Below are positions 19,001-60,420 of a DNA stretch of 64,000 nt, piece by piece; positions within the stretch are counted from its first letter, which is position 1, and the number at the start of each line of letters is the position of its first letter. The stretch is from Watersipora subatra (Eukaryota; Bryozoa; Gymnolaemata; Cheilostomatida; Watersiporidae). A program made the position numbers and the translations under genes. Under the pieces are notes generated by a model. It worked only from the letters and a program-made list of their open reading frames with translations. It was not told where the DNA came from and ran no database searches. The DNA is taken from the NCBI RefSeq assembly GCF_963576615.1, contig NC_088708.1, positions 3,224,001 to 3,288,000 of the forward strand, given 5' to 3'.

Positions 19001-22000
19001 AAAAAGGCCAAACTGACAGACGAGTTGAATGAGAAACTAGAACACCGGCCTGGCCCTCTCGAGTTAGTCACACAGAGGATATTAGAGGTTGACGACCCGA
19101 TTAAAACTGCCCTTGAAGGTACTGAATGAACCAATGCCATTTTAAATCCAAGCATATAGTCATCGCACTCAAAACTGTCATTCTGTATAGATTATGGCCC
19201 TTAGGTTTAGGTTATCATTTAAAAACTGGGTATTATGTACTTTAAAGTGAATAATCAACTTGACCGTTAAATTCAAAACACTAGGAAAAGTATAAGCTGT
19301 CTGCTGAATTTGTTCAGTATGTGGCAGTTTTAGCTGGCTATATAGAACAGCTTGTCCTAGATGACTCATCTAATAGCCAGCTCAATGAGAAGGTATTAAT
19401 GTCAAATAGCAATAATACAGGGCTGATGAGCTTGTTTGCTGCCCTCTAGATTCCACCCCCCCCCCCCTCCCCTTCACAACATTAATGATCACCACTTTCA
19501 GCTTTCATTGACTCGCTAACTTATTTATGCTTTGGTTCCAATCTGTGATTGAAATTCGCCGCCCCTGCACAAGGGCTGTTTATCTCAGAATATATAGGCA
19601 GATGCTGGGTGTGTTAAGACCCTTTACTAGTAATAACAAATGGATCAGGTGAAATTTGTCCTTGAAGGAATGCTTTTTTATGCTTTGTAGAAGGCAAGCT
19701 ACAATTTCAGAAAGCGGAGGATGCGGTGGAGACATCGAGTGTGGTGAAACAGCCATATGTGGTGGAGAGTCCCAAGTCTGGTCAGTCTTCGCCTGATCCT
19801 TTGGACTTTGACGATTCTAACAGTATTACTAGTACTTGCACTAGTTTTAATGCATCACAAGTGCCAAGCCCACCAGATATTTCTCCGTTGCTTAACAAAC
19901 CGACCACATTAAGCAGGACTATTGGAGGTCAAACTATTAGCATACCTCTCACCTCTCAGCCATCACAACCATTCCGCCCTCCAGGACAATTTGTGTTGCC
20001 ATCTCCACAGCAGCCGTACCCTACATCTTCCCGGTCGCAGCAGCAAGGTGCAATCTCTAGTCGACCAAACCGTCGCAACTCTCGTCACTCTCGATCTAAG
20101 CAGCAAACAAAGCAGCGAGTTATAAAGTTTCACGAATATAAGGGACCTCCGACATCCAAAGCTTCCAACTCAGTTGGCACCTTTGTAACTACAACTGGGC
20201 CGATGCAAAGACTTGACGGTTTGACAGCTCATGAGATGAGAGTGCACCAGCAGAATCTCTACCTTCAATGTCAAATGGAAGTGGAGAGCAAGGCAAATGC
20301 TCCAACTCTTCTCCATTCTGTCAAAGCATCACCTGCGACACCGCTCTCACAGTCACAGGTATCTGACATTCATGAAATGCAGGAACCACCAACGCCTAAT
20401 CCAGATTTAGCCCGGAGCCGACCTGAGACACCAAGCTTTTCCATCAGATCTCCACCGACGACAATATCCAGTAACAGCCACTCTGTGCTGCATGTCTCTC
20501 GCTCTCTCTCGCACCTCGAGGACCTCAAAGTGGCCGACTTGAAGCAGGAACTGAAGCGGAGGGATTTGACCGTTTCTGGCTCTAAGCCGCAGCTCATTGA
20601 GCGGCTAAGAGAGCACCAGCTGAGGGAGCTCTCAGGTAACATTGCCTTTTGCGATCTCTTTCGCGTCTATGTCAGAATACAGGTTGATGTCGAATTACAG
20701 CCTAGGCGACTCAACGACCTTAAATTTATTTTCTTTTGGTGAATTTTTTTTTTGTATAGGTTGAGATATTTTTGGCCACAAATCAATTTTTACCGTTTTT
20801 GCGGTAATGTATTGTCGATAAGAATGTTCGCCGATGTGAACAAAAAGACTGCTTGGAAAAATTTTATTTTGCATTGCATGTTGTATGTTTTTATATTTAA
20901 AGGGTGGCATAAATAGTAATATATATAACGGTTCGGCTTACATCCAGACCGGGTTAGGATGTGTCGGTCGGAACATAACGCATTCGCAAGTTAACAACGA
21001 CCTGTATCCAGTGTTACTTCCTATTGGAGTTACCTTCTCTGTTTTGTTGTGCAGCGCTATTGCATTTCATGGATTTAATGCTCATCTCTACTACCATCTG
21101 AACAGATCACCTCAGCGATAGTATATCAAGCCTATAAGCTCACAGTTTTAAATGCAAACTTAGTCGTGACATGATGAGCAGCTCTCAGTTATGACCACTT
21201 ATGCACTTCCTCAAGTTTTCCAAGTACAATCAAACCTCTTCCACTAGACCCTATATGTATGAACTTTTAGACATGTAATGAAAATTTAAGCAAATATGTA
21301 TCTCAGATTATGTGCAATGTAAGTTAAAGTAAGCTATGCCACGCATTTTTATCACTCACTCAACCACCAGTCATGCGCAATGCCAAGACTACACTTCCAT
21401 TCACGTGTTTCTATGGTGAAACAATGATAAGAACCTTTTTATTGATTAATAATTTTGTTTTCACATGTATTTTACGTTTTTAAATTAAAATTTTGTTTTT
21501 ATCCTTTTCTCTGTTTCAATGCTTTATGTAGATACTATTTAGTATTTATTGTTGCTTATTGGCTCTGGAATTAGACAAAATCTCATGTATTCTTGCCAGA
21601 ATATATATATATATATAAATTAGAAAATTAAATAGTTCACTTATCTTTTGCGCAGGGCATTCCTAATTGAACCTCTGCCACTGCGCATGTTGCCATTAAA
21701 CAAGACTAGTAAAAGGGATGTCTCAAAAATACAGTGAAACCTTAAAGTTGATCGATCCATCCAGATATTAGTTTTATAAATCGCAATATATATAAATCAC
21801 ATATACATGTATATATACATATATATACATGTATATATATATATATATGCATATATACATGTATATATATATATATTGCAATTTATAAAACTAATATCTA
21901 GATGGATCGATCAACTTTAAGGTTTCACTGTATTTTTTGAGACATCCCTTTTACTATTCTTGTTTAATGGCAACATGCGCAGTGGCAGAGGTTCAATTAG

Positions 22001-25000
22001 GAATGCCCTGCGCACTGCCCTCGCGCATCTATGCCTTGAAAGTGTGTGATGTATTTATTATTGTCTCTAAACAGCAAGCATCCCATCGGTCAGCACGGCA
22101 AGCCCTGCGCCCAGCTCAGAATTGAGTTATTCGGCTGCAACACCAAGCGTTCAGAGCTTCTCTGATGAAGTAATAATGGCACCACCCAGTGTTGCCAGCA
22201 TAACTAGTGTATCTGGCTCTGTTCTCCCTCCAAACATTAGTTCTCCTCCTCAAACTCCCAGCTCACCAATGGAGGACCTTTTAAAATCTCCTTCAATAAA
22301 TCCGGGAATGGAAACTGATGAGTCTACGAGGTAAGCGGTGGCCATCTTGTACCGCATGTGGTTCAGGAGTGATGCTCCTAGTAAATTTACTCACCAAATC
22401 TTAGGTGGATAAACAAGAGCAAGTAGCTAAATAGGTGCCAATCTTTTCCAATATCTCTTGGAATGTATATCAGCACGAAACAATCGGTGCTGAGATGATG
22501 CAAGGAGCTCTGCTTTTTCTGCTCAATGCTCTAATTATGCGAAGAAGTGCAAAGCAAGCGCTTGCTTTGTGATCTCATTGCACCAGCTAGACAGCTAGAC
22601 ACCGACAACTTTTGTTAGGCGCAGCAGCTATGCGGTCTTTGTTTTAGGAATAGAGACATTGCCTCAATTAGTTGTGCAGCTCAACTGCGTTAATTTGCTT
22701 CTCACAGGCTCCCAGTCGGGTTTATTAATCATAAAGAAATTAGCTTTGAACTGTAGGCATAATTGCACTGTTTTTACTAATCGTTGCTCCTGTACAATCT
22801 AACTAACAAGAATCGTTTCGTAACAATGCCTAGGCCAGTTCCTTTTATTCAATATTTCCTTCATGCAGCTTATTGATTGTTTCTTCTTTAGCCAATCAAG
22901 TAAGACAACAGCAGACATGCATAAGACTGTGCGTGCACAGGCCAAACAGATAGAGGTACTCACGGTAAGTTGTCTCCATTCTGGCTTCCTCTATAGCATC
23001 TCACAACTTTCTAGCCTCCATATCCCTAGAACTTTATAATGCTCAGTACATTCTTTTCAGACTAGATAGCTTAGAATCCACTCGCTTTGTGCCCTTGATC
23101 ATTCCAAACCACGTGTAATTCTCAATTATCTCTTTCTGTATCATTTTAGAGGCAGTTGATGCAATTTCAACAGCAATATCCAATGGTGCATCAGCCATTG
23201 GCTACTACACCAACTCCTGCACCTCAACAGACAGTATCTTCGCAGCAGGAGCAGGTACCCTCAGTGACACAGCTCCAACAGGTGCCCTCCGCTGTTCTGC
23301 CTCAGATGCAAGAATTATTACAGCAGAGCAGTCAACAACAGGGTCAAGAATTTTCACAGCATATGCAGCAGCAGGCAACTCCTATAAATATACCGGACAA
23401 GCAAGTATATCTTGCAACACCAGATGGTAAAATGACGGCATACAAGGTGATACTTCATACAGGAAACGGTGTCCTGCAGCAGATGATACCAAAACTAGCT
23501 ACACCTGATCAAATTGCGCCGTGAGTTCTTAGAATATCTTCAAGTCACCACAATATAGGCTGCAATGTTTAACGGTCATGCCACTTACCAGAGATAAGAC
23601 ATTCCTTGAAATTTCTAAGTGCTAGTTAATTTTTAGTCCCAAGGTTCGTTGCTAAAATATCATTGGATTGTTTGGTTCTGAGAGTTCCAACAATATAAAA
23701 TAAACTTACCGTAAAACCACTATTTGAACACCACTTTTATTTGAACACCACCTCTAATAAAATGCTACTATAGGAAAAGGATGAAAAGTGCCACCCATTA
23801 ATTGAATGTCACCTCTATTAAACCGCCTCTTTGCCATTATTTATGGTTGATTTTTACGAACCCCTAACAAAAAGTGATCAGGAGAAGTGTCCATAAAATG
23901 ATACTAATAATGACTGAGTTACATCAGTTAATTTTTTATTTTGCTGTAGCGTTGCCATAGTTTTAGTGACGGCGTATCTGTTTGCTGTAGTGTTGTCATA
24001 GTTTTAGTGACGATGTACTTGTTTGCTGTAGTGTTGCCATAGTTTTAGTGACCGTGTACTTGTTTGCTGTAGTGTTGTCATAGTTTTAGTGACCGTGTAC
24101 TTGTTTGCTGTAGTGTTGTCATAGTTTTAGTGACGGCGTATCTGTTTGCTGTAGTGTTGTCATAGTTTTAGTGACGATGTACTTGTTTGCTGTAGTGTTG
24201 CCATAGTTTTAGTGACGGTGTACTTGTTTGCTGTAGTGTTGTCATAGTTTTAGTGACGATGTACTTGTTTGATGCAGTGTTGCCATAGTTTTAGTGACGA
24301 TGTATTTGTTTGCTGTAGTGTTGCCATAGTTTTAGTGACGGTGTATCTGTTTGCTGTAGTGTTGCCATAGTTTTAGTGACGATGTTCTTGTTTGCTGTAG
24401 TGTTACCATAGTTTTAGTGACTGTTTACCTGTTTGCTGTAGTGTTGCCATAGTTTTAGTGACGATGTACTTGTTTGCTGTAGTGTTGCCATAGTTTTAGT
24501 GACGATGTACTTGTTTGCTGTAGTGTTGCCATAGTTTTAGTGACGATGTACTTGTTTGCTGTAGTGTTGCCATAGTTTTAGTGACGATGTACTTGTTTGC
24601 TGTAGTGTTGCCATAGTTTTAGTGACGGTTTACCTGTTTGCTGTAGTGTTGCCATAGTTTTAGTGACGATGTACTTGTTTGCTGTAGTGTTACCATAGTT
24701 TTAGTGACGGTGTACCTGTTTGCTGTAGTGTTGCCATAGTTTTAGTGACGATGTACTTGTTTGCTGTAGTGTTGCCATAGTTTTAGTGACTGTTTACCTG
24801 TTTGCTGTAGTGTTGCCATAGTTTTAGTGACGATGTACTCGTTTGCTGTAGTGTTACCATAGTTTTAGTGACTGTTTACCTGTTTGCTGTAGTGTTGCCA
24901 TAGTTTTAGTGACGATGTACTTGTTTGCTGTAGTGTTGCCATAGTTTTAGTGACGATGTACTTGTTTGCTGTAGTGTTGCCATAGTTTTAGTGACGATGT

Positions 25001-28000
25001 ACTTGTTTGCTGTAGTGTTGCCATAGTTTTAGTGACGATGTACTTGTTTGCTGTGGTGTTGCCATAGTTTTAGTGACGGTTTACCTGTTTGCTGTAGTGT
25101 TGCCATAGTTTTAGTGACGATGTACTTGTTTGCTGTAGTGTTACCATAGTTTTAGTGACGGTGTACCTGTTTGCTGTAGTGTTGCCATAGTTTTAGTGAT
25201 GATGTACTCGTTTGATGTAGTGTTGCCATAGTTTTAGTGACTGTTTACCTGTTTGCTGTAGTGTTGCCATAGTTTTAGTGACGATGTACTTGTTTGCTGT
25301 AGTGTTACCATAGTTTTAGTGACGGTGTACCTGTTTGCTGTAGTGTTGCCATAGTTTTAGTGACGATGTACTTGTTTGCTGTAGTGTTACCATAGTTTTA
25401 GTGACGATGTACCTGAGAAAATCGATTGTCACAATCATCAGAATTATCCTGATTCGAGGTCACTAAGGTGTAAATCCATTGTTTTCAAATTCGTTCATAA
25501 TATGGCTTACAACCTGACTGCAAGACTTTAAAGCGTTTTAATGAACATTGAGCATACTCTTCAGGAACATCGTACGGCGTAATAATAATAGTAGCCATTG
25601 GTATGGTATAATGAAGTCTTTTCTAAAGCTAAGAAAACTTTAAACGTTTTCTTTTTCGTTAAAACTTTAAACGTAACACCATCGAAATAATTGATAACTG
25701 CATCTATATAATGTTTTACTCAAAGTAGTTCCTTGTTTAACTTGGTCTCTTACTTCGTCATACATGAAAAATAGTTTAGTAAAAATGCTGAAGGCCAACG
25801 GCATTAACGTCGCTCTACTCGAAGGAGACTGCCAAATATAGGTGACATTAGCATCGCTTCATCCGTAAAAGGGTTATATTAATTTTCCCAAAATGTTGGC
25901 GAGCTAGTCGCAAAAATAAAGTTCTACAATTTATTTGAACGTCACCTCTAGTGCAACACCATTATGGGGAAATTAATGGTTAAAAAATATGGCGCTCAAA
26001 TATAGGTTTTAAGGTATTTACATGTACTAGAGATTAAGCGTGTGCCATTCTGTTAGAGTAAGTAATCGATGGTTGTATGCATGTCTTTTCAAGAGTGCAG
26101 TCAGTAGTCAGTAGTGAGCCAGGAATGAAGTACTCTATAATATCTTTCAAGAGTGTAGTTAGTAGTGAGTCAGGAGTGAAGTACCCTATAATATCTTTCA
26201 AAAGTGTAGTTAGTAGTGAGTCAGGAGTGAAGTACTCTAAAATATCTTTCAAGAGTGTAATCAGTAGTGAATCAGGAAAAAGTACTCTGTAATGTCTTTC
26301 AAGAGTGTAGTTAGTATTGAGCCATAGTGAAGCAGTCTACCCTACAGGACAATATTATTCACAGAGTTAGATTTTGCGAAAGTTGTCTTTTCATGCATTT
26401 TTGCGTTTTGTGGATTATTATATTCGCGGAGGAACACATATGCGAATAAATTAATTTGTGCGTCGAGCTATCAATAGAGTGCAAAACCCTAACATGCGTA
26501 TAGCAGTGTTTAACTCTATATAGGACTTTTTTATTCTATATTTAATCGTATCTGGAAATCAAATCATATACATACATTGTCTATTTTATCAACGTCGGTA
26601 TTAGAAGTTGTTGGAGGTGATTTCACAGTGAATAATTGCAAGACCAATTTTTGACAACACATGCTGAATTCTGAAGAAATTGTGCCAACCTTGAATAATT
26701 TTGTAAAGAGTTGTTATGCATTGGCATATGGCATGCATTGGTGCAATTCTGACCCCCAAGATGGTTACAAAAGTTTTGTAACCATCAGGGGTTAGAAGTT
26801 AGAACTTAGCTATATTTACTGGCCACGTCCGGTGACTAATTTTTAATTTTACCTAGCAGTTATTCTCCCCTTTTTTGAGAAAAGTTCCAACAACTCTGAT
26901 TATTCATGGATTTAATCTATTCGCGGGATTGTCTGCCCGCAAATTCACAAATTTTTAAATCCATTGAATATCATCCTGTAGGGTATCTTTTAAGAGTGTA
27001 GTTAGTGGTTAGTAGTGAGCCAAGAGTGAAGTAGTCTATAACATCTTTCAAGAGTGTAAGTTGAAGCCAAGCTTAGTTGATAACAAAAGAACATTTTTTT
27101 CAATTTTAACATTTTTTTCCAATTAGTTTGGAATGCCGATGTATTTATATTTTGAGGGAACAACTCCATATTGATTAAGTAAACATTACCTAAATCTTTT
27201 ATCATTGGCTCTATTATTAGACTACTTATTATCAACGAGATTGAGGTATAGGCCTTTTTAAAAAATTATCAGCAGTAAAAATTCATTTCAAGACATTAAA
27301 TGCTTCATAATTTACACAAAATCAGTAAAGTATTGTGGTACCTGCTGCCTATACATATGGTATGGTGACAAGTGTTTGGCTAGTGTATTTGCTCTCCAAC
27401 ATTCTATGTATAGATTTAGCCTGATTTTCTTTAAGGCTACCTTATTTTTGTTACTTTGTGCAATACGAGTTCATAATTATTTTCAAATCAGTTTCAAAGA
27501 CCTCATTCTTGGTTTTGAAATACATATATTTCTATTAATTGTTCTGTTGACGTAAAAAGTTCTCATTTCCACAGGAATTGAGTTTACTAGGAAAACCATG
27601 ATTTGACTAATTTGTAGCCGTAGTATATTTTACAATGGTTTACTAAGTAAATATTGGACTCTTACCCAGCATGCAGCAGCGATTTTTGTTGTCTTAGTGG
27701 AACTGTGATTCAATATTTTGTTGTTCACGTGTATTTAATTTAAATGATTACTCTAGGTTAATGCATTAAATCCCAGTGTATAACTGTTCACATCAAGCTC
27801 ATTAGAATGGTTTGCTTGCGAAACTAAAGATGGCCTTTCATTATCACACTTTTCGAAAATGGCAACAAACACAAACTGACTGTGGATTTGACCACTCAAT
27901 CTTATCTTTCTTTGTAGAACAACACTTGCAACAAGCTCACAGATATCTGGAGAGCAGACAATTTCATTGCCAAATTTTGCAGACATGGATGGGAAGGTAA

Positions 28001-32943: not shown

Positions 32944-34646
32944 TATGTAGCACAAAATAATCAATATCTACATTGCATTCTTTATTACTTCCTAAACATA
33001 CATTCTACTATCGCATCGAAAAGCGCTTAAAGCACATTAATTACATAAGTACTGTTTCAGCTTATTCGGGTTCTTCAGTATTTTGGCTTTCAAATGAGCC
33101 ATTGTTTGACATGGTTAGACAGACATTGGTTGATGTTTATAGGATTTCCCCAGAGCTCTACCGCAGAAATCTTCAATGGTATCAGCTCGGAAATTGAGAC
33201 GCCACAATTTTCATATTCGGTGTTGTGTGCTCTTACCACTTATTTTATTGCTTACCGCTTATATTTATCAACTACGATAATGACGCTAGTGGCAGGCGAA
33301 GGTAGGACAACTCCAGAGAACTAATGAAGATGACAAAGGAATCAGTGTCATTAGCTCTCCATGTACAGATTATTTCTATGATAAATAACTCAAATTCCAA
33401 GCACCATACTATGTTTTCCCGATGATATTATGTACTAGCCCTTTCTTTTTATTGTGATGTTGAGGAGCACGACTGAGACTAATTAATTTCAAGCATTGTG
33501 TGATCTCACGAAAGTGCAATTGACATGTAGTCCTAGGGCAACGACACTGCAGGTCACAATTTAATCGATGTGATTTCATTACTTTTATCAACGGCATTAT
33601 ATTTATTGAAGCATAATTAATTAACCCAAAACATGTGTTTGTATTGGTCGGGCATTACCATGATCCCCGGGCATTGTTGATTATCTAGAATCCTAGTTTA
33701 TTATTAGCGCTCTCTGGGTTTAACAGCACCGATTGTCACAGAAAAGCGCAGCCTCAATAGTAGCGAAAGGGATCGACGACCTAAGGATAAATAATAATTA
33801 TGACATAACATTGCGGCAACCGCAACCAAGTGTTTTTTCATTGCAGGACATACTTTTGACACCCTGTTTTTCATTTTTCTACTATTCTTTGTGTATCGAA
33901 TATAGGCTCATTTGAAAGCCAAGACTCCGATGTATTGAAATGCATAATAAAAAAATTATATAATTCATGTGCTTTAATACACACCGCATCCAGCAAAGAG
34001 GAATGACACCGAATCGTCAGAGTGTATCAAAACATTGAATGTTGCTGATATTTGTATAAATGTTTTGCTAAGACTCGGGTGGGATAAACAGCACAAGATG
34101 ATACCTTTGTCCTCGGCCCCATTACTATCAGCATACAATTGTTATTTGCCACTTAACAGTAGCATAACATTGAGCCCCTCAATATAAAATATTAATTATT
34201 CAACTACTACATAACCAAAACAAAGCTCAAACTTACATTGGGACAGTTAACCTTATATTTGTTTGAAGTATTTGTGCATCGGCGAGGTTTCACCACAACA
34301 TGTCATCTTCACACCAATTCTCAATCAAACAAAAAACACAGTCAGCAATCAAAACAATAAAAAATGTGATGAGCATAGCAAATGATCACTGATGGCATAA
34401 TAAAATGGAACTTAGAGGGCAATTACATTTGCATACTGAGCAACAGCGCGATGCCCCAAAGTATAAGACCAGTTGAATTGCCAATTACTGATCTAACTTA
34501 TCTAAAGAGGAAAGATAATTTGGTATTGGAGTGAAATTATAACATTGGCTTGAAAAATAGACTAGAAGTTAGTGTAAGACAGGGCATCTATGTTCAGAAT
34601 TTGAAATTTGTAAAAGATAATTGATATTAACTAAAAGTAGGAGCTT
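32944..34646. other. Intergenic, nothing recognised
   Basis: Several open frames of 60-76 codons (for example 32973-33197 and 33094-33324) lack any recognised domain and overlap in different frames. No terminal repeats or RNA genes were seen. Confidence 0.4.
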
Positions 34647-34909
34647 GTCCTGACCATAGAGTTATCTCCCCCTAGAGTGATAACTACACGAGGGTTTCCG
34701 GTGCCAACAAGGAGCGTTTAGGCCACGCCCCTTTTTTGTGCTAGTCAGTCGTAGTGATTGACTAGATCAATAACATCAGCCATGAAAAGGGTTAAACAAG
34801 GATCATGCATTTCCAGTTAAGATAGTAATTAATGTTCATATTAAAGAAATGATGATTATAGTTTATTACTCTAATATATGCTTATTATTTAAAGCAATTC
34901 AATACCTAC

Positions 34910-36237
34910 CAGGGATCGCTAAACATATTATGGAAATGTTTACTTTTCCATATCCATTTCCATAAACATAAATATTTCCATAATTTTAGGGAAATGGATA
35001 TGGAAATTTTATTTTAGAAATATGGAAATGGTATGGAAATGGAAATAATATGAAAATAAATTATGGAAATGCTATGGAAATGGAAATAATATGGAAATGA
35101 AGTAGGGAAATGTAATGGAAATAATATGGAAACGAATTATGGAAATACTATGGAAATGAAGTAGGAAAATGTTATGGAAATGAATAATGGAAATGAATTA
35201 TGGAAATGGAATTAATATGGAAATGAATTATGCAAATTTTATGGAAATGAAAATAATATGGAAATGAATTATGGAAATGTTATGGAAATGGAAATAATAT
35301 GGAAATGAAGTAGGGAAATGTAATGGAAATAATATGGAAACGAATTATGGAAATACTATGGAAATGAAGTAGGGAAATGTTATGGAAATGAATTATAGAA
35401 ATGAATTATGGAAATCGAATTAATATGGAAATGAATTATGCAAATTTTATGGAAATGGAAATAATATGGAAATGAATTATGGAAATGTTATGGAAATGGA
35501 AATAATATGGAAATGAAGTAGGGAAATGTTATGGAAATGGAAATAATATGGAAATGAATTATGGAAATGTTATGGAAATAGAAATAATATGGAAATGAAT
35601 TATGGAAATGTTATGGAAATGGAAATAATATGGAAATGAAGTAGGGAAATGTTATGGATATGAATTATGGAAATGTTATGGATATGGAAATAACATGGAA
35701 ATGAAGTAGGGAAATGTTATGGAAATAATATGGAAATTAATTATGGAAATTTTATGGAAATGAAAATAATATGGAAATGAATTATGGAAATGTTATGGAA
35801 ATGGAAATAATATGGAAATGAAGTAGGGAAATGTTATGGATATGAATTATGGAAATGAAGTAGGGAAATGTTATGGATATGAATTATGGAAATGTTATGG
35901 AAATGGAAATAACATGGAAATAAAGTAGGGAAATGTTATGGAAATAATATGGAAATTAATTATGGAAATTTTATGGAAATGGAATTAATATGGAAATGAA
36001 TTATGCAAATTTTATGGAAATGGAAATAATATCGAAATGAATTATGGAAATGTTATGGAAATAATATGGAAATGAATTATGGAAATGTTATGGAAATGGA
36101 AATAATATGGAAATGGATTATGGAAATGTTATGGAAATTGAATTAATATGGAAATAAATTATTGAAATTTTATGGAAATAAAAATAATATGGAAATGAAT
36201 TATGGAAATGGAAATTGTGACATACACGTAATCCCTG
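34910..36237. mobile_element. hAT-like element composed mainly of a TATGGAAATG minisatellite
   Basis: The element begins CAGGGATCGCTAAAC and ends ACGTAATCCCTG, giving a short inverted end CAGGGAT/ATCCCTG. ATACCTAC is duplicated on both sides (34902-34909 and 36238-36245). Between the ends about 1.25 kb is a tandem array of TATGGAAATG, GGAAATAA, GAATTATGGAAATG and similar blocks with higher-order units of some 40 bp. The right arm of the surrounding palindrome retains the empty site with a single GTAGGTAT (37553-37560). No coding capacity is present. Confidence 0.8.
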
Positions 36238-36417
36238 ATACCTACATGACTTGCAAAGGCACTGAATAGATAGTGTTAAGTAAGTGAGTTAATGCAATCA
36301 GTTACTCATAGATAAGATAGATAGTCATACTGGGGTTGTATTACATTAGTGTGATGGGAAGCGAATCCACTGCCATCAACTATGAGCTGTACTACTCGAG
36401 TTATAAAAAAGTCTTTG

Positions 36418-37210
36418 GACAGAAAATTTATTTTTATATAACATTTATTTACCATTCTAACTTTTAAACTTCATAACATGAGAAAATATTTTTAAGCATT
36501 TTAAAAGAATTAAGAGGAAAAAGAAAACAACTGTAAAGGTTTTCAAGCTTTTTCAAACAACTACAACTTTTAAATTTAATATCATGAAAGAAGTGTTTTG
36601 TTGAAATACATGTAAATTAGGAAGAAAAATAAAACTGTAAATGTGTTTAAATGTAAAATAATTAGCAAGTAATGGCTAAATATAATCTGTTTAGCTGTGA
36701 TTACAATGAAAAATTATTTAATAAATAAGGTAATAAAAAAGTCTATTTTATTTTCATATAATTATAATTTGGTATAATTAAGTATAATTTATTTTTATTT
36801 AACGCATAACAACATTTGCCACTTTAACTTTCAAACTACATATTATGAGAAGTGTTTTGTGTAATTGAAATAAATGGAGAGAAGAGAGAAAACAAAAACA
36901 ACTGTAAATGTTTTCAAGCTTTTTCAAACAACTACAACTTTAAAATTTCATATCATGAAAGAAGTTTTTCGTTGAAATGAATTAGGAAAAAAAATGAAAC
37001 TGCAAATGTGTTTAAATGTGAAATAATTAGCAAGTAATGGCTAAATATAATCTGTTTAGCTATGATTACAATAAAAAAATGATTTAATAAATAAAGTAAT
37101 AAAAAAGTCTATTTTATTTTTAAATAATTATAATTTAGTATAATTAAGTATAATTTATTTTTATTTAACATATAACAACATTTGCCACTCTAACTTTCAA
37201 ACTTTTTGCT
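36418..37210 (+). repeat. Two direct repeats of ~371 bp at the centre of the fold-back element
   Basis: Blocks such as TTTTCAAGCTTTTTCAAACA and GCAAGTAATGGCTAAATATA recur with a 371-bp offset (for example CTGTAAA at 36531 and 36902). A partial third start (CATTTGCCACTCTAACTTTC) is at about 37180. Very AT-rich. Confidence 0.7.
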
Positions 37211-37455
37211 TGCTTACATCAAGCAAGGATGACCACTAACTAGTGGACATCCTTGCTTCAAGCTAGTCTATGCATTTGATTGATATGTATCAAAATCTAA
37301 TATTACATGCAAGGGCTGTTTGTGGACTGTGGTGTCAATGAATCACTCTATCACCATACAATGTCAATACTTTCAGTTGATGGCAGTCGATTAGCTTCCC
37401 ATCACACCAATGTAATACAACCCCAGTATGACTATCTATCTTATCTATGAGTAAC

Positions 37456-37499
37456 CAATGATATACAGCCCCACCCATGTGGGTGGCTGTATATCATTG
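37456..37499. repeat. 44-bp hairpin inserted in the right arm of the fold-back element
   Basis: CAATGATATACAGCC and GGCTGTATATCATTG are perfect 15-bp inverted repeats around a CCACCCATGTGGGT core. The corresponding left arm (about 36290-36310) lacks this segment and reads straight from GCAATCA to GTTACTCATAG. Confidence 0.65.
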
Positions 37500-37815
37500 A
37501 TTGCATTAACTCACTTACTTACACTATCTATTCAGTGCCTTTGCAAGGCATGTAGGTATTGAATTGCTTTAAATAATAAGCATATATTAGAGTAATAAAC
37601 TATAATCATCATTTCTTTAATATGAGCAATAATTACTATCTCAACTGTGGAAATTCATGATCATTCTCATGGCTGATGTTATTGTTCTGTCAATCACTAC
37701 GATTGACTAGCACAAAAAAGGGGCATGGCCTAAACGCTCCTTGTTGGCACCGGAAACGCTCGTGTTGTTGAAGGCACAGTTATCACTCTAGGGGAGATAA
37801 CTCTATGGTCCTGAC

Positions 37816-52376: not shown

Positions 52377-53970
52377 AGAAACGAGCAGCATCCCTTACTA
52401 TCATTTCAATGTTGTTGCATTGTGTTGAATCGTTCCACACCCTTGAAAACAATTCAACTGCGACTGCTTTATCATAATTGTCATCTGCTACTTTTCCTTG
52501 CTAGCATTCCTTTACAATAAGCATAGTCAATTTACATGTATGTATGTATGCAAGCCATTGTTCTTGTATAGAACAGCTTTTCTATCCGCTACTCAATGGA
52601 ACTTATAGACATCTTCCTGTGTGTTCTCCATCATGCTGACCTATTTTCACTATTGTATATTGCTGCAATCATTTGTTTGCCTTAAAATGTCAGCTGTTCT
52701 ATAAACTTGCAATGTATGCGAGGTATTTGTCTTAAAGACGCTGTTGCCCTTCTCCCTCGTTAGCTTGATGTAAAACATACATCGGCATGCAGGCATGCAT
52801 CGCTTTCCTCCACTTCTGTGTACCCAGGGTTGTAGTAGTGGTCATAGCCTCCATTCCTCACATACCACAAAACTTCAGCATTTGCAATTTGAGCATAGCC
52901 ACCTGGATTAATGGTTTTGAAAAGGCTTCAAATATGACAGCCACTATTACACTGCTTACCCTGGCTTCTATTTAAACCTTTTGAGGTAACAGTTTGAAAG
53001 ATCCGTGCTGTCATTTGTTAGGAACATATGGCACTCTGCATTGAGAACTGACTCACTTGAGACAAATGCTTTAGTTGACATCATCTAGGTAATAATTATT
53101 TATAATAATTATTTCCATAGATGATTATTACCATAAAGTGACATCTTTATACCGTTATATACCGTTATATACCGGTATACTGTAAATTGTCTTCGTTGTA
53201 AAAATAGTTTGTTCTGTCTAAATGTATGGGCAAGAAGTTGACAGACTGTTTGCCGAAGCCCTACAGCAAAGGTGCCAGAAATTGGCAGGCAAAAGTAACT
53301 CAACCAATTCTTTGAAGTGACTGCAGTGATGATTAGCACAAGGTTTAAGCCACTAATGCAGTGATTGTGCTTGGCCTCTTAATAATTATGTATGCTGCAA
53401 CACTGCAGGCGTGCTGTGCTGGGTTGAAGGCGTTACATGAAATTTAACAACTAGAGATAATCTGCGTATTTATTTGGATCTATGCAGAAACCTTTCATAG
53501 ATTTGCCTCTGATGTGCACTGTGTGGTCTATTAAAACATAGATGGCTGCATGTTTGAACTACTATTCATATTTGTACATAGAGGAAATAGTTTGGTTATT
53601 TTAATAATATTCAGGCAATGGAAAAGAACAAATTTAATTTGTACTATTTATATAACATTCAAATAAGTTCAAAAAATCTCACAACTTCAGACATAAGCTT
53701 CAGCCATTGCAATATTGATAAGCAACGCAATAGACTTCAATTTCTAAGTAATCTGCGTGTCTGAAGTAGGAGGAGAAATGAGCCAAAATTATATTGGTTA
53801 TAAGAATGGTGGAAGAGACGACATTTATCATTGCCCTGTGTTTGGCTCGCGCACAAACGTCCATCATAAGTTGGTTCACAAGGAAATTAAAGTTGTCTGC
53901 CCCACAAAAGTTGCTGTCACGCCTCCACGATTAAAAACCAAAAGCATTTGTTATATCCTATAGAGCTAGC
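52377..53970. other. PRDX6 3' flank and intergenic, nothing recognised
   Basis: No canonical AATAAA was noticed soon after the stop; an AATAAG is near 52516 and an ATTAAA at 53530. Short frames at 52787-52975, 53109-53339 and 53757-53963 have no known domain. A small repeat TACCGTTATA occurs three times near 53150-53175. Confidence 0.35.
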
Positions 53971-53973
53971 CAA

Positions 53974-54698
53974 ACCATGATTGTGATACGTCAATGTCCC
54001 AAACCATGATTGTGATACGTCAATGTCCCAAACCATGATTGTGGTACGTCAATGTCCCAAACCATGATTGTGGTACGTCAATGTCCCAAACCATGATTGT
54101 GGTACATCAATGTCCCAAACCATGATTGTGGTACGTCAATGTCCCGAACAATGATTGTGGTACGTCAATGTCCCAAACCATGATTGTGGTACGTCAATGT
54201 CCCGAACAATGATTGCGGTACATCAATGTCCCAAACCATGATTGTGGTACATCAATGTCCCAAACCATGATTGTGGTACGTCAATGTCCCAAACCATGAT
54301 TGTGGTACGTCAATGTCCCGAACAATGATTGCGGTACATCAATGTCCCAAACCATGATTGTGGTACGTCAATGTCCCAAACAATTATTGTGGTACGTCAA
54401 TGTCCCAAACAATGATTGTGGTACATCAATGTCCCAAACCATGATTGTGGTACGTCAATGTCCCAAACCATGATTGTGGTACGTCAATGTCCCGAACAAT
54501 GATTGCGGTACATCAATGTCCCGAACCATGATTGTGGTACGTCAATGTCCCAAACAATGATTGTGGTACGTCAATGTCCCAAACAATGATTGTGGTACAT
54601 CAATGTCCCAAACCATGATTGTGGTACGTCAATGTCCCAAACCATGATTGTGGTACGTCAATGTCCCAAACCATGATTGTGGTACGTCAATGTCCCAA
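53974..54698 (+). repeat. 29-bp minisatellite, about 25 units
   Basis: The unit is CAATGTCCCAAACCATGATT then GTGGTACGT. Variant units carry CGAACAATGATTGCGGTACAT. These occur at 54211, 54327 and 54501, spaced by exact multiples of 29 (116 and 174), which points to duplication of multi-unit blocks. No gene is nearby. Confidence 0.92.
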
Positions 54699-58800: not shown

Positions 58801-60080
58801 GATTGCTTTTTCTTAGGAGGCCGATTACCTCTACCGACTCGATTCATTGATACATTAAACACCAAATGTAAATATGGGTGTGCGCTTAAGACTACGCTCT
58901 TTACCTGGAGTGTTGATTTTTAAAAAATAATCGTTGCAATTTTAAAGAACTGAAAAGTTTTAGAATAAGTATTACTATGGATCATGTTTTACATAGTACT
59001 CAGTGTAGTTTTACCTTGCTCACAATGAGAGGAACATCGTGGTGCTATCCTGGTATTTAGTGTTGTAATGTATAGGGGCAACTTCTGAAAAGTAACCGTT
59101 GTTCTTCTGGAGGTTGATCTTATTTTTTATATGAATGTCAATACGCTTTCAGTGCAGTTTTTTAATATAATCCAAGTTCTCTACAATAATAAGCCTCACA
59201 TAAAAATAGGGGTTATAGAAAAGGCAGCCATTTTAACAATGGAGCTCCCATTAGAAACCTGTTGTCAATTAAGCAGTCAGCTTGTTATCTATAAAAAGAT
59301 TCATAGGAACTAAAGTTAATCTAAGCGTTAGGTTTTACTTTAACTATGGCAGCTGCTGTTATTAACAATTAATGTTTGGTTAACCTGAATCTTTGTATAA
59401 ATTTGTTTAAACTTGCAGTCTCTGACTCTGCTGTGCATAGTTTCTGGTTATGATACAGTGTCATTCATATCAGATGAAAATTTTGTTATAGTTTTACATA
59501 GCTTTATCATTTTTATTAATGTATGTATGCTAGAAATACTGTTTGACATTTACACATGGCTTATATGTGCAGAGCAGTCTTGTCGATTTTGAATTTTTGG
59601 TTAAACTTCGGTTCATATGATTTAAACTTTTGAATACTTCAATATTAGTCTGCTTTGGAAGGGCATATGTTGTAGTGAGCTACAACAAAGTATGTTTCAT
59701 ACACTCAAGCAACCCTCATGATTCTTTGGATCATTCCACAAAGGCTTATTTATAAGTCATCAGGCAATTCATAGACCATCAAAAACTCACTCGTTAGCTA
59801 AAATAAATTTGGTTTTTTGGTTATAACGGATTGTGCTCTGTAGGCAGAGTTGCAGCACTTTCATAAAAGACTTACTTGGTTTCTGCCCTCTTAAGTTTTG
59901 GGTACTACACACAACATATAGGGTACTTTGAGATAACGAAGAAATTTTGAATATGTATAATGGTTGTTTAGAAAACTACATAAGAAAATCAAACTGCAGT
60001 AGTAGTGGTGGCAAGCAGCTGCATCAGTGGTGATATGCAGTAATGATAGCACTGGTAAGTAGCAGTAACCATATTGGTAG
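55841..60080. other. Long intergenic stretch, nothing recognised
   Basis: No coding region with a known domain is seen on either strand. Around 57705-57845 are short palindromic runs built from ATCATCAATGATG-like and TGGTGGCAGTGTATA-like motifs (inverted with CATATACATTGCCACC). No complete element was delimited. Confidence 0.4.
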
Positions 60081-60420
60081 ATAGTGATACTGGCAGTAGA
60101 TAGTGATACTAGTAGTAGGTAGTGATACTAGTAGTAGGTAGTGATACCGGTAGTAGGTAGTGATACCGGTAGTGGGTAGTGATAGCGGTAGTAGGTAGTG
60201 ATACCGATAGTAGGTAGTGATACCGGTAGTAGGTAGTGATACCGGTAGTAGGTCGTGACACTGGTAGTAGGTAGTGATAATAATGCGGATAGCAATGGTG
60301 GTAGTCAGATCAGTGCCGGTACCCAGAGCAGTTGTAGTAGCCAATACAATGATAGTAACCAGTGCAGTGGTGGTAGCCAGTGCTGTGGTGATAGCTAGTG
60401 CTGTGGTGGTAGCCAGTGCT
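60080..60420 (+). repeat. 19-bp and ~18-bp tandem repeats
   Basis: About 60085-60290 is a 19-bp tandem repeat (GTGATACCGGTAGTAGGTA), about ten units. About 60290-60420 is a looser GTGGTAGCCAGTGCT repeat. The overlapping open frames on both strands, which encode Thr/Ala or Tyr/Leu repeats, come from the tandem structure and are not genes. Confidence 0.8.

Follow-up and report, generated by a model that had tools for sequence, protein, structure and literature searches.

A very probable non-autonomous hAT transposon with a minisatellite body, nested in a fold-back element of the bryozoan Watersipora subatra

A minisatellite between transposon ends

The window analyzed here is a stretch of 64,000 nucleotides from the Watersipora subatra genome (contig NC_088708.1, positions 3,224,001 to 3,288,000, forward strand). 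It is characterized by a fold-back element whose left arm carries a second, nested element made up largely of a minisatellite. The features of this locus, in window coordinates, are:

34647..34654, + strand: left target duplication of the outer element, GTCCTGAC; the same 8-mer follows its right end
34655..37807, + strand: the outer element, a fold-back of 3,153 bp (nested insert included), CATAGAGTTATCTCC...GGAGATAACTCTATG
34902..34909, + strand: left target duplication of the nested element, ATACCTAC
34910..36237, + strand: nested element with a minisatellite body, very probably a non-autonomous hAT element, 1,328 bp
34910..34938, + strand: left end of the nested element, CAGGGATCGCTAAACATATTATGGAAATG, at 757 places in the genome (reversed control 0)
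34945..35006, + strand: left subterminal stretch; the repeat motif runs both ways here, with ATTTCC at 34956 and 34974
35017..36210, + strand: minisatellite array of TATGGAAATG-type units with periods of 24, 41, 82 and 208 bp, all in one orientation
36216..36237, + strand: right end of the nested element, TGTGACATACACGTAATCCCTG, at 697 places in the genome (reversed control 0)
36238..36245, + strand: right target duplication of the nested element, ATACCTAC
37552..37559, - strand: empty counterpart, in the opposite outer arm, of the site filled by the nested element; located by pairing of the fold-back arms
37808..37815, + strand: right target duplication of the outer element, GTCCTGAC

The nested element opens with CAGGGATCGC and closes with CGTAATCCCTG, its terminal inverted repeat being an exact 7 bp (CAGGGAT/ATCCCTG). 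Ends of the CAGGG type are common in hAT elements. A sequence-only reading of the window had described the block between these ends as almost wholly array, and this is borne out by Tandem Repeats Finder, whose rows start at 35017, 35019 and 35039, stop at 36210 and cover about 90% of the element. The motif GGAAAT occurs in it 93 times, versus a mean of 2.0 and a largest count of 7 in 200 mononucleotide shuffles; its reverse complement, ATTTCC, occurs twice, both times in the left subterminal stretch. No stop-to-stop frame of at least 110 aa overlaps 34910-36237. The element is therefore comparable in its noncoding nature, inverted ends, high copy number and array body to the tandem repeat-containing MITEs. 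The same reading had reported an exact 8-bp duplication at the flanks, which is present, and an empty site in the opposite arm of the outer element. That arm indeed reads CAATTCAATACCTACATGCC without interruption and has a single copy of the ATACCTAC 8-mer, but the copy lies at 37552-37559 and not at 37553-37560.

A boundary scan, which asked for an exactly duplicated 8-mer next to inverted ends of 8 bases (at most one mismatch), recovered the correct pair for this array along with one spurious pair inside it. The scan found no transposon ends around five other arrays of the window (within 600 bp) or around an array of 366-bp units (within 200 bp). The latter, with 1.9 copies, occupies 36512-37203 in the middle of the outer element; the other large arrays for which the scan found no ends include those at 23940-25412 (41-bp), 53970-54698 (29-bp) and 60077-60419 (19/18-bp units). 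Elsewhere in the window, a 358-aa open frame at 19666-20742 contains a SAP domain (E 9.1e-12), the one match above the cut-off when seven frames of the window were searched against Pfam.

The outer element has the termini CATAGAG...CTCTATG, with the nested block sitting in its left arm, and its arm pairs are 92-100% complementary. Its ends number 1,185 genome-wide (at most two mismatches; reversed control 0). Below, L-numbers denote sampled genomic stretches and C-numbers contigs. All 38 sampled stretches with the outer flank and the left end of the nested element align to the window. Two of these (L003 and L035) are the window's own place and are left out of the other 36, in 34 of which the alignment starts at 34646-34655, starting further in for L012 and L030. 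Matching 8-mers flank the outer element in all three copies with both ends found (the window, L008 and L028). The consensus of its duplication is approximately GTYNRRAC, from 33 distinct left flanks; these leave out L012 and L030, where no outer end was found, and L018, whose 12-base flank is the same as that of L013. The target of the P element is GTCCGGAC. P elements are described as producing 8-bp duplications (PMC1562414), and we take a P-type identity of the fold-back element as a lead, not a finding. PF21787 has 175 matches in the genome, of which 150 were listed; among the matches listed, none was seen by eye to link a P-type transposase to the outer ends (100 of the 1,185, on C1 and the start of C2).

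Two copies of the outer element, L013 (C2) and L018 (C6), lie on different chromosomes with an identical flank, and the outer element hence seems to be carried, in turn, by another repeat. A 44-base near-perfect palindrome (CAATGATATACAGCC...) lies at 37456-37499 in the right arm, where the left arm, by eye, has two bases; it looks like a tiny separate insertion, and 17-mers similar to it (at most two mismatches) occur in five sampled loci.

Dispersed copies and transposase-bearing relatives

The sequence-only reading proposed a genome search for the same termini, and this search found further copies in abundance: the left end occurs at 757 places in the 784-Mb genome and the right end at 697, each with at most two mismatches and with 0 for the reversed control. 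Given the 757 left ends and the empty control, the boundaries at 34910-36237 are not a product of chance. A pattern joining the outer flank to the left end is found at 430 places, so that about 57% of all left ends belong to a single site of the outer element; this share is approximate, since 430 and 757 come from two different 29-base patterns, each allowing up to two mismatches.

Exact left ends on C1 were sorted for the first 30 (L031-L060): nine are at the outer site; 14 in eight multi-headed elements, which have more than one left end; five in simple elements elsewhere; one in a transposase-bearing element (L036); and one (L053) is accompanied by the 5' region of that transposase element, without a second head in the stretch. 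Thirteen elements away from the outer site have both ends readable: 11 of these are flanked by exact 8-bp duplications, of 11 different 8-mers, and two by inexact ones (one mismatch in L060, two in L034). When 17 sites, four of them one-sided or inexact, are compared with the Hermes target preference nTnnnnAn, the fit is partial, T2 being present in seven and A7 in 11. The arrays run one way in all 50 copies compared, with reversed GGAAAT occurring 0 to 2 times in each. Individual copies have further peculiarities: the array element at CCTTGTAA in L039 (approximately 1520-2430) carries, by eye, some 0.9 kb of inserted inverted-repeat sequence close to its left end, and a copy in L041 (1772-1850) is inserted in another tandem repeat with a 17-bp unit containing CCTTGTAG, giving a minisatellite within a minisatellite.

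These dispersed copies rule out a local growth of the array from outer-element sequence between chance 8-mers. Array lengths do vary between copies at the outer site, as such growth would allow. However, the same ends and array bodies recur at unrelated sites with different 8-bp duplications, the reversed-pattern controls are 0 for both ends, and paired uninterrupted arms point to outer elements that are empty on both sides; we accordingly give coincidental flanking 8-mers virtually no credence. That the array travels in a transposable unit, as had been proposed from the window, is thus upheld.

The transposase partner came to light at C1:7033810, where a right end lies about 600 bp after one of the weaker PF05699 matches. 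In L091 the order is a PF05699 exon (E 3.9e-12), 19 ATGGAAAT units and an exact right end; against the PDB, this exon retrieves four Hermes entries (E 2.2e-6 to 4.7e-6). A near-copy 176 kb away (L092) has a 98% identical exon and a changed last base. The 9.7 kb preceding the right end of L091/L093 yielded no left end. By a protein search, a relative was located in L036, downstream of the left end by about 3 kb. Together, L036 and L094 present a left end that differs little from the window's, a relic right end ACGTAATCCAAG at +104 to +116, noncoding DNA, broken transposase frames with the hAT dimerisation domain (PF05699, E 3.7e-15), and an array that begins at about +3467 and is still running at the end of the stretch. 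The 5' arm of L036 is nearly devoid of array, with 116 bp from the left end to the relic right end and two forward GGAAAT motifs; 5' arrays were seen only in the multi-headed elements and in L053.

The shared ends are thus divided between relatives, the left end being found in L036 and the right end in L091. Among the stretches read, no single copy combines both ends with the transposase and the array (the L094 stretch ends within the 3' array), and none of the transposase-bearing copies has arrays at both ends. No intact transposase frame was seen, the coding frames of L036/L094 being broken. A C-x2-C...H stretch is visible by eye in L036, where Pfam returned no BED zinc finger match; four of five middle and end pieces of L036/L094 had no Pfam match above the cut-off, and two more pieces likewise. 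The 30 best PF05699 loci, with 1.5 kb on each side, contain no left end; a loose resemblance to the right end was seen only twice there, neither time with a duplication. Right ends lacking a preceding array occur at 0 places (at most one mismatch), and a gene-only form was not found in this way.

Since both L091 and L036+L094 have the array after the hAT domain, the array is part of the hAT family, situated between its gene and its right end. It is thereby not exclusive to the element at 34910-36237, the transposase-bearing relatives carrying it too. Because array elements have their own 8-bp duplications elsewhere, and because transposase-bearing relatives share their ends and array, we are highly confident that 34910-36237 is a non-autonomous cut-and-paste element of the hAT superfamily, a MITE with a tandem-repeat body that depends for its movement on a hAT transposase supplied from elsewhere; the hAT-like identity suggested in the sequence-only reading is thereby strengthened. 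The hAT transposase would act in trans on the array element, and the short form may have arisen from a transposase-bearing relative through loss of the gene between arrays. Identities of tail and head do not discriminate between the parental arms as the source of the array.

One outer site, many array lengths

Arms of the outer element without an insert occur at 705 places in the genome, and 100 of these were listed, 58 of them bearing letters at a variable base. Twenty-eight of the 58 partner a filled arm, with C as the variable base in 26 and A in two. Two outer elements, inferred from positions to be empty in both arms, have A in all four arms; the other 26 arms are unpaired, with 18 A, seven C and one G. 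The pairing used all listed ends, on C1-C3 up to about 46 Mb: the 26 C and two A arms pair within 8 kb and 25 and two within 4 kb, while ends picked by eye gave 25 C and two A. Four further +/- pairs of uninterrupted arms are listed, without letters, on C4 and C5. The base C is linked to filled elements, with C/A counts of 26/2 versus 7/22 in the others (Fisher p 1e-7, with the single G arm left out; a rough value, the copies being related). This linkage is the reason for which we regard a single insertion into the fold-back element, subsequently multiplied with that element, as well supported. To the earlier picture of a transposable array this adds a mode of spread: the copies at the outer site most likely spread with the fold-back element and not by jumps of their own.

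Alternatively, the outer site could be a hot spot hit many times independently. The approximately 430 left ends at one site, the 26 different insert lengths, a multi-headed insert at this site in L028, and the two of 28 filled elements that carry A in place of the shared letter would all accord with recurrent hits. Against these stand the C shared in the other arm by filled elements (26 of 28, versus 0 of 4 in the doubly empty elements) and the left arms, which match the window's at 93-100% identity in 19 of 21 cases (90.6 and 73.2% in the remaining two); we hold repeated independent insertion to be very unlikely. The one orientation of the sampled outer-site copies was selected by the query, and has no bearing on the number of founders.

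The founding insertion was apparently followed by divergence of the array. The 38 stretches represent 36 distinct outer-site copies (L035 and L040 duplicate the places of L003 and L002), of which ten have no right end in the sampled stretch and 26 were measured; a stricter rule for the end leaves 21. The comparison of internal lengths, also proposed from the window, yielded inserts of 295-1,328 bp with no two alike among the 26, and the right duplication is exact in 22 of them. Because all 26 inserts at this identical site differ in length, the array changes after insertion, one of the possibilities that the sequence-only reading had named, and divergence of array lengths since the founding insertion is well supported. 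L016 and L009 are 100% identical to the 255-bp left arm of the window, with inserts of 501 and 600 bp, and only 96.3 and 95.7% identical to it over the right flank (163 bp); hence, arrays differ even between close copies, whose right flanks also carry base changes. Slippage, unequal exchange or gap repair may account for such changes in length. The outer-site copy in L028 (minus strand, 1530-1911) has a multi-headed insert, which suggests an exchange between elements or a second insertion.

Multi-headed forms, the repeat and related systems

The eight multi-headed elements among L031-L060 each combine a single right end with two or three left ends. In seven of these, the first part runs from a left end through an array and a relic right end (CCAAG/CCAAA) into transposase-element 5' DNA, which extends as far as GTACACAC; the second part, after GTACACAC, is a complete short element. 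In the eighth (L054-L056) the joint lies at ATACATAA, which is also sequence of the transposase-element 5' DNA. The GTACACAC joint is found at 70 places genome-wide. The simplest account of the double-headed form, and the one that its structure suggests, is nested insertion followed by a mispairing of ends: a short element would have landed in a transposase-bearing one, with the outer left end and the inner right end then being used. Unequal crossing-over between neighboring elements could also generate such forms. In its favor, the intermediate predicted by nested insertion, namely an array element at GTACACAC inside a transposase element, is found at 0 places genome-wide (at most two mismatches). 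However, the transposase element L036 has the sequence of the constant joint GTACACAC unbroken, as nested insertion expects, and each of the eight multi-headed elements, readable at both ends, is flanked by matching outer 8-bp duplications of its own. We consider unequal crossing-over unlikely, though still a contender, and retain nested insertion as the preferred account.

The GGAAAT repeat is a putative subterminal binding site of the transposase, and arrays of it may keep the gene-less element mobile. For several hAT elements, a requirement for sequence well past the tips has been reported, and the Hermes BED domain is described as binding subterminal repeats (PMC10368747). For Kat1, the abstract reports the subterminal repeats as important, while the text calls their effect a speculation (PMC4763223). 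In Galileo, transposase sites are described inside tandem repeats (PMC3688188). The array could instead be passive, a chance minisatellite within a hAT element with no part in transposition, and we put this at little short of an even chance. A passive array is compatible with the wide variation in insert length and with the transposase-bearing L036 being nearly without array in its 5' arm. It is less readily reconciled with the array's position in the subterminal zone of transposase-bearing relatives, where Hermes is described to have its BED-bound repeats (PMC10368747), or with the single orientation of 50 of 50 compared arrays. L036, almost without a 5' array, tells against an absolute need for the repeat. 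As a tentative and on balance doubtful extension of the active reading, putative transposase-binding subterminal repeats of a hAT family might have run away into same-orientation minisatellites at both ends; recombination between arrays would then delete the gene, in a manner comparable to the formation of solo LTRs, and yield mobile minisatellites of any length, with nested ends yielding multi-headed families.

Tandem repeat-containing MITEs of Donax trunculus, reportedly described by Satovic and Plohl in 2013, are said to be small non-autonomous elements with short inverted ends and a tandem-array body; we know of no hAT transposase partner with the same array described for them. The element reported here resembles several further systems in part:

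Hermes and other hAT elements. These share the 8-bp target duplications and subterminal repeats, and the dimerisation domain is related (E 2.2e-6); unlike the short repeats interspersed in the ends of Hermes, as described, the array here has some 90 copies of its motif (PMC10368747).
The Tetris and Galileo fold-backs. These likewise are described with variable numbers of tandem repeats inside a transposon (PMC4079207, PMC3688188); the Tetris repeats are reported to have become satellite DNA (PMC4079207), and some of the Galileo repeats to bind the THAP domain of the transposase (PMC3688188). Galileo, however, belongs to the P superfamily and has its repeats in long inverted arms (PMC3688188), whereas the present element is of hAT type with a one-orientation array.
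The Cg_HINE Helentrons of the Pacific oyster. These too are described as non-autonomous and as dispersing short tandem arrays, with uninterrupted sites found; they differ in belonging to the Helentron superfamily, in lacking a target duplication and in that the authors could not link an autonomous partner (PMC7492417).
BrickBuilt of Porphyromonas gingivalis. This is also presented as a minisatellite within a MITE, but is bacterial, with a 23-nt unit (PMC4596501).

The double-headed form, in its proposed origin, is comparable to the alternative transposition described for maize Ac, where the ends of two neighboring elements act as one unit (PMC4270019), and to the macrotransposition proposed for P-MITEs (PMC1562414); unlike in these cases, the double-headed unit seems to be a family of its own, with 70 joints. 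In the open literature searched, with Repbase, Dfam and most subscription papers outside its scope, we found no hAT element sharing a minisatellite body with transposase-bearing kin. The sources covered there describe tandem-repeat MITEs, Helentrons and fold-backs with arrays, and hAT appears only in two reference titles in the passages covered of a review of transposon-born repeats (PMC9659126). Tandem-repeat MITEs are already known, and we claim no priority for the hAT case.

The array element has apparently spread in two ways, through jumps of its own and as a passenger of the fold-back element. It offers a direct case of a minisatellite dispersed by a cut-and-paste transposon, with both an empty site and transposase-bearing relatives at hand. 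The outer site is, moreover, a natural experiment, with hundreds of copies seemingly derived from one insertion and different arrays in all 26 measured: the rates and modes of minisatellite change would thereby become measurable inside one genome, and it becomes testable whether such arrays are enlarged transposase-binding sites.
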